Shown: positions 33,923-37,768 of the stretch, one piece after another
How the letters are laid out: the number at the start of each line of letters is the position of its first letter
How positions within the stretch are numbered: position 1 is the first letter of the stretch
NCBI GenBank assembly: GCA_013824715.1
Contig: PNOH01000036.1
Span: 1 to 44,476, forward strand
DNA length: 44,476 nt
Source of the DNA: Odoribacter sp.
GTDB lineage: Bacteria > Bacteroidota > Bacteroidia > Bacteroidales > Prolixibacteraceae
Reading direction: 5' to 3'
Notes under the pieces: generated by a model
What the model was told of the DNA's origin: nothing
The model's database searches: none
The model's input: the letters and a program-made list of their open reading frames with translations, nothing else
Translations under genes and position numbers: made by a program

Positions 33923-36900
33923 ATGATTCTATTCTTTAAAACCCCACAAGACACTTTTATTGCTCTACAATCGGTTCAAAGCCTTGATCAGGAAGATATT
34001 TCTAAGTTAATCTGGTTGTTTGGCGAAGCCGAAAAGCTCAACGAAGAGGTTTTAAACGGATGGTTTGTAGGGCCTCGTAAAGAAATGCTAACCCCCTGGA
34101 GTACCAATGCAGTTGAAATTACCCAAAACATGGGAATTCAGGGGATTCAGCGAATTGAGGAATATATCGAGGTTGCCGACCGGTCTGCCGGATTCGACCC
34201 AATGCTGAAAGCTTTGTATCATAACCTTGATCAAACGATATTTACAATCAATAAAAAGCCGGAACCTATTCTCGAAATTGGAGATATTGCATCCTACAAT
34301 GAACAAGAAGGGTTGGCCCTTAGCGAAGATGAAATTGAGTATCTGAATTCGGTTTCCGAAAAATTAGGGCGGAAATTAACTGATGGCGAAGTTTTTGGTT
34401 TTTCGCAGGTGAACTCCGAACATTGCCGTCATAAAATCTTCAACGGCACCTTTATTATTGACGGTGTTGAACAAGAAATGTCGCTCTTTCAATTAATTAA
34501 AAAAACATCGAAAGAAAATTTCAATAAGATTATTTCGGCTTACAAAGATAATTGCTCGTTTGTGCAAGGTCCGGTTGTAGAGCAATTTGCTCCTAAAACG
34601 CAGGATAAACCTGATTTTTTTGAAATAACTGACATCGAAACTGTACTTTCATTAAAAGCCGAAACCCATAATTTCCCGACAACAGTCGAACCTTTTAACG
34701 GGGCAGCAACCGGTACCGGTGGCGAAATCCGTGACCGTATTGCAGGAGGAAAAGGTAGTCTGCCCATTGCGGGGACTGCCGTTTACATGACTTCGTACCC
34801 TAGAAACAAAACAGCCAGCCCCCTAAATCCCCCGGACTTAAACGACCAGGTTCCAAGAAATACAGGTGAATTTGTTACTTCAGAAGTCCCCCCTTCGGGG
34901 GGATTTAGGGGGGCCGTTGGTCTTAAAGCCTCCCCTTCGGGGAGGTTGGGAGGGGCTGGTGCTTCATGGGAAAGGGCTTTTCCTGAACGCGACTGGCTGT
35001 ACCAGACTCCGGAAGAAATACTGATCAAAGCATCGAACGGGGCCAGCGATTTCGGAAATAAATTCGGTCAACCCATAATTACCGGTTCAGTACTTACCTT
35101 CGAACATTTTGAGAATAACCGGAAATATGGCTTCGACAAAGTGATCATGCTGGCCGGAGGTATTGGCTTTGGTGCGAAGAAAGATAGCCTGAAAGGAGAA
35201 CCAACCAAGGGCGACAAAGTGGTTCTTTTGGGTGGCGACAATTACCGCATCGGAATGGGCGGTGGGGCTGTTTCGTCGGTAGCAACCGGAGAATTCGAAA
35301 ATCACATCGAGTTGAATGCCGTTCAGCGTGCCAATCCTGAAATGCAGAAACGAGTTTACAATGCCATTCGCGCATTAGCTGAATCATCTGAAAATCCAAT
35401 TATTACTGTTCACGACCACGGTGCAGGCGGTCACTTAAATTGTCTTTCGGAACTGGTGGAAGCAACAGGTGGAAAAATAGATACTTCGAAATTGCCGGTT
35501 GGCGACCCAACGCTTTCGCAAAAGGAAATCATCGGAAACGAATCGCAGGAGCGCATGGGGCTGGTGATGCACGAAAAAGATGTTCCACTTTTGCAGCGGA
35601 TTGCTGACCGTGAACGTGCGCCGATGTATGTGATTGGCGAAGCTACCGGCGACATGCAGTTTACTTTCGAAAACTCGAAAACGGGCGAAAAACCGATCGA
35701 CTGGCAGCTTGCTTACATGTTTGGAAAACCGCCAAAAACTGTTTTGACCGATACCACCCGAAATGAAAAGTTTGCTGACCTGGAATACGATAAGGTTAAA
35801 ATAGAAGATTACCTCGAAGATGTGCTTCAATTGGAAGCTGTTGCCTGTAAAGACTGGCTCACCAACAAGGTTGACCGCTCGGTAACCGGACGAATTGCCA
35901 AGCAGCAATGCGCCGGACAATTGCAGCTTCCTTTGAATAACGTTGGTGTAATTGCGCTCGATTATCAGGGCGAAAAAGGATTAGCCACGTCTATTGGTCA
36001 TGCGCCAGTTGCAGCTTTGGTTGATGCCGAAGCCGGATCGGTACTTTCAATTGCCGAATCGCTGACCAACCTGGTTTGGGCGCCACTTTCCGATCAGTTG
36101 AAGGGTGTTTCGCTGAGCGCTAACTGGATGTGGCCGGCTAAAAATGAAGGTGAGAATGCCCGTATTTACAAGGCTGTAAAGGCTGCCAGCGATTTTGCCT
36201 GCGAACTGGGAATCAACATCCCGACCGGAAAAGATTCGATGTCGATGACCCAGAAGTACAAAGACGGAGTAGTATATTCGCCGGGTACTGTAATTATCTC
36301 GGCTTCCGCAGAAGTTTCGGATGTGAAAAAAGTGGTTGAGCCAGTATTGATCAACGATCCGAAATCTTCCATATATTTTGTTGATTTCTCGAAAATGAAC
36401 CGTTGTTTGGGCGGAAGCGCTTTCTCGCAAATCATCAATAAATTGGGCAATGAAGCGCCTTCGGTTGCCGATTCAAAATACTTCGCCGCGGCGTTTAATG
36501 CCATTCAGGATTGCATCGAAGACCTGAATATCCTTGCCGGACACGATATTTCATCCGGAGGCTTGATTACCACCCTGCTGGAAATGTGTTTTGCAGATAA
36601 CTATTCAGGAATGACGCTTGATTTGAGTGGAATCGGTGAAGCTGACAACGTTAAGTTGCTATTTAGCGAAAATCCGGGAGTGGTTGTTCAGGTTGCTGAC
36701 GCCAAGGCTTTTGAATCAGTAATGAATGTGGCTGGAGTTCAATTTTTACTGATCGGGAAGCCTTCAGGAAGTCGTGTTTTTACACTGAAAAATGGCGCTG
36801 ATGAATTTAATTTCGATTTGAATTCTCTGCGCGAGTTGTGGTTCAAATCATCGTATCTGCTCGATCGGAAACAATCAGGAGAAAAACTGGCGCAGGAACG

Positions 36901-37768
36901 TTTTCAGAATTATAAAAAGAATGAGCTGAAATTCGATTTCAAAGGATTCACCGGAAAAGCTGCTGATTTGGACATAGACCTGAAACGCAGGAAGCCGAGT
37001 GGAATCAAGGCAGCCATCATCCGAGAAAAGGGTGCGAATGGCGACCGCGAAATGGCATATATGATGTACCTGGCCGGAATGGATGTAAAAGACGTGCACA
37101 TGACCGACCTGATTGCTGGCCGTGAAACGTTGGAAGATGTGAACATGATTGTTTTTGTGGGCGGTTTCTCCAATTCAGATGTGCTGGGATCGGCCAAAGG
37201 CTGGGCCGGCGCTTTCAAATACAATGAAGCCGCCAAACTGGCACTTGAGAATTTTTACCAACGTGAAGATACATTGAGTCTGGGCGTTTGCAATGGCTGT
37301 CAGCTTATGGTTGAATTGGGTTTGGTTTACCCCGGCCATGCAGAAAAACCAAAGATGATGCATAACGAATCGCATAAATTTGAATCAGGCTTTGTTAATG
37401 TCGAAATCCTTCCGAGTAAGTCGGTCATGTTGGAGTCAATGACCGGAATGAAACTCGGTATTTGGGTAGCCCACGGAGAAGGAAAATTCAGTTTACCACA
37501 GGAGGAATCAGCATACCTGATTCCGATGAAATATTCGAATACGGCTTATCCCGGAAATCCGAATGGTTCAGATTACGATGTGGCTTCATTGTGTTCGGAA
37601 GATGGCCGCCATTTGGTTATGATGCCGCATTTGGAACGTGCCTTCAAACCGTATCATTGGCCTTATTATCCGTTCGACCGTAAATTTGACGAAATTGCTC
37701 CCTGGATGGAAGCCTTTGTAAATGCCCGGAAATGGATGGAGAAAAAAACGAATATGAAAATTTTTTAG
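33923..37768 (+). CDS. purL: phosphoribosylformylglycinamidine synthase with in-frame inserted segment
   Basis: 1281 residues from the ATG at 33923; a start 36 bases earlier would lie on the promoter. This is the large one-chain PurL that makes FGAM from FGAR, ATP and glutamine in purine synthesis. Visible parts are the N-terminal PurS-like domain, [43 protein letters not shown], the second synthase half ([13 protein letters not shown]) and a C-terminal glutamine amidotransferase with the nucleophile cysteine in [13 protein letters not shown] and a later histidine in WVAHGEGK. Between Arg294 of MTSYPR and Trp349 of [10 protein letters not shown] about 48 extra residues rich in Pro, Gly and Ser replace a short linker of relatives. 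They come from palindromic repeat DNA. The frame is kept. Confidence 0.95.
34805..34966 (+). repeat. palindromic repeat inserted in frame in purL
   Basis: Exact inverted arms lie at 34819-34833 and 34898-34912 (CCCCCTAAATCCCCC and its complement), with an inner pair GGACTT (34834-34839) and AAGTCC (34884-34889), and a C6/G6 hairpin with loop TTC at 34888-34902. A second hairpin, CCTCCCC/GGGGAGG, lies at 34929-34945, followed by TTGGGAGGGGCT. This composition is foreign to the gene and looks like spacer repeat DNA. It reads through without stop and matches the extra residues of the PurL product. Exact ends need alignment. Confidence 0.85.

Follow-up and report, generated by a model that had tools for sequence, protein, structure and literature searches.

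How did palindromic repeat DNA come to lie in frame inside purL, and what kind of element does it represent? The question arises from a stretch of 44,476 nt (the window) of a 4.6-Mb draft genome, labelled G000, whose nearest public records in the genus are labelled Prolixibacteraceae or Bacteroidota bacterium. The features concerned are the following.

About 33923..37768, + strand: purL (phosphoribosylformylglycinamidine synthase), the host gene; a single open frame of 1281 aa counted from the first ATG.
34805..34966, + strand: in-frame insert in purL, recognized by comparison with 16 empty and five other insert alleles of the genus.
34817..34839, - strand: left repeat unit of the insert, with an inverted arm at 34819-34836; longer versions occur in L019, L043 and L047.
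34840..34882, no strand: spacer of about 43 bp between the units, compared by blastn and tblastn.
34883..34917 (core 34887-34913), + strand: repeat unit 1, TCCCCCC-TTC-GGGGGGA-TTT-AGGGGGG; covariance-model E 1.1e-8; a seed of the model.
34925..34957 (core 34929-34955), + strand: repeat unit 2, CCTCCCC-TTC-GGGGAGG-TTG-GGAGGGG; covariance-model E 4.3e-10; a seed of the model.

The in-frame insert in purL

The purL product matched the PurL structure 1t3t of the PDB (E 9.7e-210), and its frame runs uninterrupted across 34805-34966. The insert was defined by an alignment of six insert alleles and one empty allele. After MTSYPR, 53 residues replace the TEDAR of the empty alleles, which read MTSYPR-TEDAR-SWEQATEERDW, and the net gain is 144 bp, or 48 codons. 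TTC-loop hairpins were located at 34887-34903 and 34929-34945, and inverted arms (18 nt, 94% complementary) at 34819-34836 and 34895-34912. What an earlier note had read from the letters of the window, namely palindromic DNA in frame within purL, two TTC-loop hairpins with inverted arms and some 48 extra residues, was therefore borne out. When folded as RNA, the insert had a z of -3.04 and none of 200 shuffles was equally stable; DNA folding was weaker (z = -1.46; 15 of 200 shuffles equally stable). An AlphaFold model of a 431-residue PurL fragment around the insert (alignment of 41 rows) had a mean pLDDT of 45, too poor to use for judging whether the insert occupies a surface loop, as the earlier note had proposed.

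Unit 2 is the top match of the covariance model in the genome and forms an imperfect direct repeat of unit 1 (75% identical, 42 bp apart), and the left minus unit is 6 bp shorter than its counterparts in G002, G007 and G009. The insert ends in this shortened minus unit on the left and in the two plus units on the right, which is the -/+ orientation of the repeat-ended DUF559 element described below; no DUF559 gene lies between these ends, where there is only the spacer of ~43 bp.

Alleles of purL in relatives

The same site was compared in 22 congeners. As the earlier note had stated for relatives, a short linker (TEDAR) was found in most of them: 16 alleles are empty, five carry other in-frame inserts of +81 to +108 bp and one (G001) was unreadable. 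Close homologues do not all share the loop of the source genome, and most of the relatives that were read lack an insert. In the six insert alleles (source genome and five congeners) every length difference from the empty allele is a multiple of three, and by inspection all six show a minus unit to the left and a plus unit to the right. A similar left flank is common to five of the six, that of G010 being shorter. A common origin of the six inserts is likely. The two plus units of G000 may stem from recombination between types of allele.

Among 80 named PurL loci, 75 were readable, and in 72 of these the distance between two fixed motifs is 47 or 48 residues; the remaining three have inserts whose loops are identical to those of the congeners G009, G010 and G015. 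No large insert was found at this loop in 29 other genomes of the phylum sample with a close PurL (one of these, G260, has a PurL break elsewhere), and the idea of a phylum-wide insertion hotspot at the PurL loop was rejected on this account. A DUF559 domain inside purL was seen in none of the 21 readable congeners, the 75 readable named loci and the 29 further phylum genomes, which counts against the explanation favored below.

A single clade of insert-bearing congeners was rejected for the PurL tree (p-AU 0.0003), and a second PurL tree, used without an AU test, showed three changes of insert state. Since the insert carriers are not one clade in these trees, a common origin must have been followed by recombination, transfer or loss, and this distribution is a further point against the favored explanation. 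An rpoB tree was unsafe: the aligned row of G002, with a branch length of 10, is probably out of frame, and rpoB is present twice in G011. The p value of this tree was set aside. The two copies in the draft genome G011 (L195 and L210) are different from each other, which suggests that this draft is contaminated; the empty purL of G011 may also be contamination.

A dispersed repeat unit with mirror geometry

The insert DNA has other copies in the source genome. BLAST returned 43 matches at E<=10, eight of them, including the insert itself, at E<=1e-3. A covariance model built from 20 seed units, which had been found by a mirror scan, returned at least 97 units at E<=1 (both purL plus units included) and at least 65 at E<=0.0021; both numbers are lower bounds because 150 of 471 first-look candidates were scored. 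The units are G/C-rich and 25-35 bp long, and are composed of a pyrimidine tract, a short loop (often TTC), a complementary purine stem, a short loop and a second purine tract, with stems mostly of 6-8 nt and many pyrimidine tracts.

In 61 of the 65 units the purine stem is asymmetric, so that a mirror can be distinguished from a direct repeat. The third tract is a perfect mirror of the second in 56 of the 61 and a perfect direct repeat in one. This mirror covariation does not depend on the 20 seeds: when they were left out, 38 of 41 asymmetric units had a perfect mirror and 286 of 289 mirror positions matched, compared to a maximum of 261 in 2000 permutations. A purine-only pattern search in G000 gave 12 matches, of which 11 are by inspection paired hairpins, all of them exact mirrors, with six different pyrimidine tracts. 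As the third tract mirrors the second, the units fit an intrastrand Y-R-R triplex of the kind proposed for TMECO (see below); alternative hairpins would need a direct repeat.

Neighboring units within 250 bp of each other were oriented '-+' in 18 cases, '--' in three, '++' in two and '+-' in none, and the G-rich ends of paired inverted units face outward. Units are open in a mean of 4.8 of the six frames, as compared to 3.8 for random 35-mers, and 20 of the 65 are open in all six. A shorter form of the unit pattern matches 14 of the 23 genomes of the genus. The 7-3-7-3-7 pattern was rejected as an order-wide sign, as it matches nine of 198 genomes of the order and the matches, except those in G000 and perhaps G065, look like chance poly-purine.

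The spacers of '-+' pairs are unrelated to each other by blastn; no shared sequence was found among the 19 tested, that of purL included, and the purL spacer had no clear blastn similarity to the 18 others or to DUF559. Its best tblastn score against DUF559 was 18.1 bits, a value reached by one of 100 of its own shuffles (the mean best of the 19 shuffled spacers was 17.7). Remnants of DUF559 in the 19 spacers were rejected: overall, tblastn or six-frame comparison did no better than shuffles, and the blastn matches were short, a further point against the favored explanation. One spacer of G000, at C2:182676-182735, has an unexplained 20-bp, 95% match to the DUF559 DNA of L299 (E 1.6e-4); its translated match to DUF559 was no better than shuffles.

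Other host genes in the source genome

Flanking sequence was obtained for 76 of the 97 units, and 16 of them lie well inside open frames of at least 150 aa, some of which are probably spurious. Among the hosts, Pfam identified valS (two sites), a DegT-type aminotransferase, a histidine kinase, an Eco57I-type methylase and an epimerase that we take for a GDP-fucose synthase; two more, a tape-measure-like protein and another kinase, were assigned by reading only. Unit-free relatives were established for purL and valS, and the aminotransferase was compared with solved structures only.

At valS site 1, G000 and G010 carry one unit (translated as ESSPSGGVEGA) and nine congeners none; in seven congeners a unit-DUF559-unit arrangement of about 140 residues is found, and an eighth, G016, has it as well. 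At the second valS site (HRIPVWY...EDVLDTW, L262-L279) units occur at one or two closely spaced positions in several congeners and are absent from others, and they surround an apparently native stretch, FVVAxxEEKARxLA. Both here and in the histidine kinase, unit pairs appear to flank native host sequence, which implies that single units can also originate on their own, spread or undergo local copying. At L100 (G000 C76) there are two adjacent histidine kinase-like genes with a unit at the same position after NAFYAV, and one of the two has a second unit 15 residues further in. Apart from its triplex unit, the GDP-fucose synthase-like gene at L248 1148-2407 (G000 C5) contains another stretch that looks repeated, HVIANEVKQS...LSRNDALT, and that may resemble CGTC-type repeats.

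DUF559 genes framed by repeat units

DUF559 (PF04480) is present in 14 of the 23 genomes of the genus. G000 itself gave no match, which counts against the favored explanation. Of the 28 PF04480 matches in the genus 25 were examined, and 14 of these loci are nested in frame in other genes: eight in valS, three in ileS and three in type ISP-like proteins (Pfam on four of the 14). Many of the genomes are metagenome drafts rather than isolates, and some of the nested or polymorphic states depend on these, which also weighs against the favored explanation. Units were found within 150 bp of 14 of the 25 loci, comprising 12 of the 14 nested and two of the 11 free-standing ones; that free-standing genes mostly lack units is again a point against the favored explanation. 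Nine of the nested loci have units on both sides, and the orientation is '-' on the left in 11, '+' on the right in 10 and '-' on the right in one. The nested loci at which the scanner found no unit are L312 and L313, again a point against; they account for the two of the three type ISP loci that lack one. With the same scanner, none of 16 rpoB loci had a unit, other control loci contained two units in 151 kb, and reversed sequences gave two units in the genus set and one in the phylum set.

The nested valS DUF559 is under purifying selection, with a mean pN/pS of 0.28 (28 pairs) and a dN/dS of 0.12 (23 pairs with finite dS); the corresponding values for the valS host flank are 0.07 and 0.03. 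This selection indicates that the nested domain probably has a function. Among solved structures it matched 3hrl, an endonuclease-like protein (E 4.2e-19); a match to 3r3p, a 'mobile intron protein', was not significant (E 0.029).

The association is also seen beyond the genus. In the Bacteroidota, PF04480 was found in 60 of 118 genomes and loci were taken from 30; units lie within 150 bp of 24 of these 30 loci, at a density of 4.88/kb near the gene versus 0.20/kb farther out, an excess of about 25-fold. Orientation in this set is mixed (13 '-' and 10 '+' on the left; 13 '+' and seven '-' on the right), for which reason the favored explanation is held slightly less firmly. Fourteen of the 30 loci lie in frames of over 300 aa. 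By Pfam, DUF559 is flanked by host domains to its left and right in leuS (four cases, spread over two sites), metH (two), recG, hsdR (two) and one Eco57I-type protein; one-sided host domains were a DNA methylase in three further proteins and a peptidase M23 in one.

With YcjD of E. coli K-12 as the query, 43 plasmid records matched. Eleven plasmid loci were fetched, from Cyanobacteria, Alpha- and Gammaproteobacteria, Deinococcus and Bacillota, and units, with up to two mismatches allowed and in mixed orientations, lie within 300 bp of DUF559 in 10 of them, the exception being Thermoactinomyces. The ycjD gene of K-12, itself a DUF559 gene, has one TMECO-type unit (two mismatches) on one side, 167 bp past its 3' end (L320 2205-2240). 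A 1101-bp query around this unit had one place covering at least 80% of it in 3333 of 5426 E. coli genomes. A clean empty site for ycjD was not obtained in E. coli, the single ycjD-less strain examined having other genes beside fabI.

Origin of the insert

Purifying selection on the nested domain, its match to an endonuclease-like protein, the published assignment of DUF559 to the EDxHD homing endonucleases and a search that found neither intein nor intron lead us to propose a homing-type nuclease element with triplex-type ends. Its ends would be formed by Y-loop-R-loop-R' units in inverted orientation, with the G-rich ends outward, and its full members would hold a DUF559 nuclease gene between these ends, in frame in conserved genes, the host protein carrying the nuclease as an extra, apparently unspliced domain. 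The nuclease would cut the uninserted allele, and repair would copy the element across in a homing-like manner. The units would function in recognition or repair and, since more of their frames are open than in ordinary DNA, could also serve as Gly/Pro/Ser-rich linkers. Later loss of the nuclease would leave solo or paired units, as the valS of G000 suggests and as we infer for purL. We consider it more likely than not that the purL insert is such a non-autonomous or decayed, nuclease-less relative of a repeat-ended, homing-endonuclease-like DUF559 element.

One alternative is a REP-like population moved by RAYT (Y1/HUH) transposases, with DUF559 as a frequent cargo or neighbor and nothing more. 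The source genome has 11 Y1_Tnp matches and no DUF559, paired inverted units resemble REPINs, and a different REP-like repeat does lie beside at least one Y1 gene (C5:98113-98243 and C5:98297-98641). However, the repeats beside that gene belong to another family (ATCCCTTCGGGAT with TATAATC), and units were found within 150 bp of none of the seven Y1 transposase loci examined (of the 11 matches in the genome), in contrast to 14 of the 25 DUF559 loci of the genus; we regard this scenario as quite unlikely. Alternatively, replication slippage, template switching or gene conversion between G/C-rich units might produce the pairs and inserts with no dedicated enzyme, DUF559 being attracted to, or preserved at, such sites. 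The unrelated spacers, the apparently native sequence between units in the histidine kinase and valS, and the second purL plus unit as an imperfect copy of the first all agree with local copying, and in PMC4666352 motifs of this type are tied to local instability in E. coli. Slippage does not easily yield opposite neighbors that are exclusively '-+' (18 versus no '+-'), nor a single nuclease family that recurs with units in Bacteroidota and on plasmids of other phyla, and we regard it as unlikely.

A third reading, in which purL carries a splicing element (an intein, an intron or what is left of one) and not a translated insert, is highly improbable. It is suggested by the discussion of a DUF559 gene under inteins, as an EDxHD homing endonuclease, in PMC9403480. 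The inserts, however, seem too short for a splicing domain and keep the frame in all six purL alleles. Pfam found host and DUF559 domains and no intein domain in four congener (E<=0.001) and 14 phylum (E<=1e-5) proteins, PurL not among them, and at Rfam gathering scores there was no intron in the window or in seven nested DUF559 loci. The nuclease-bearing, repeat-ended element remains our preferred source of the purL insert, although its mobility, its nuclease activity, the lack of protein splicing and the derivation of the purL insert from a copy with a nuclease are all presumed here.

Comparison with known systems

The closest described motif is TMECO, a G/C-rich intrastrand triplex motif formerly called the PIT motif (Holder 2015, PMC4666352). 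In that paper TMECO is reported to lie between genes in every case in E. coli MG1655, to form a triplex in vitro by CD and NMR and to be linked to local instability. The paper found neither a triplex that is stable in vivo nor a connection of TMECO with mobile elements, which counts against our explanation. The units described here share with TMECO the Y-loop-R-loop-R' geometry, the short loops, the dispersal and the occurrence in inverted pairs. They differ in lying also inside coding genes and beside DUF559, and in their varied stems, mostly of 6-8 nt, which do not follow the TMECO consensus with 9-nt stems.

In-frame repeats as such are already known: according to PMC3733652, repeat clusters encode 43-82 aa in Thauera and R. 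conorii, and intragenic REPs and the Rickettsia palindromic elements are, like our units, palindromic repeats translated inside genes. The likeness to Rickettsia elements proposed in the earlier note holds for in-frame insertion with an open frame, a trait seen in all six purL alleles; beyond this it is an analogy only, since our units are of the mirror or triplex type, go with DUF559 and, by inspection of 65 unit sequences, carry no GTAG or CGTC tag at their ends. A gene flanked by inverted repeats together with dispersed solo and paired repeats is also the arrangement of REP/RAYT systems (REPINs, REPtrons), except that a DUF559-family nuclease here takes the place of the Y1/HUH transposase. 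In a cyanobacterial genome paper (PMC9403480), DUF559 is assigned to the EDxHD homing endonucleases (I-Bth0305I), a nuclease family that likewise occurs within conserved genes; unlike these, the domain found here has no detected intein or intron, seems to be kept as part of the host protein and has triplex-type repeats around it. In the open-access literature searched, no paper was found that describes DUF559 beside repeats or nested in other genes, nor one that joins triplex-type repeats with DUF559 or reports its apparently unspliced nesting in important genes.

Triplex-motif repeats in bacteria have been described without a known carrier, and DUF559 is of unknown function in Pfam. That the two occur together, both in Bacteroidota and on plasmids from other phyla, and that the nuclease is nested in frame within aminoacyl-tRNA synthetases, methionine synthase and RecG, offers a testable explanation for both. 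There is perhaps an even chance that triplex-geometry repeats and DUF559 make up a bacteria-wide class of selfish elements. Each would consist of a homing-type nuclease gene with triplex-forming ends, would sit in frame as a translated, unspliced domain in conserved, often essential genes and would seed nuclease-less copies such as that in purL. If true, DUF559 would have in this class its equivalent of REP/RAYT, and the triplex motifs known from E. coli and cyanobacteria would be accounted for. The findings also suggest a route by which important enzymes acquire low-complexity inserts, and suggest that such an insert in a gene like purL or valS is not necessarily an assembly error.

A separate dispersed REP-like family (CATCCCTTCGGGATT with TATAATC) was observed in G000, in one case next to a Y1 transposase gene, at C5:98113-98243, C2:38202-38264, C11:77959-78020 and other places (L068-L094).
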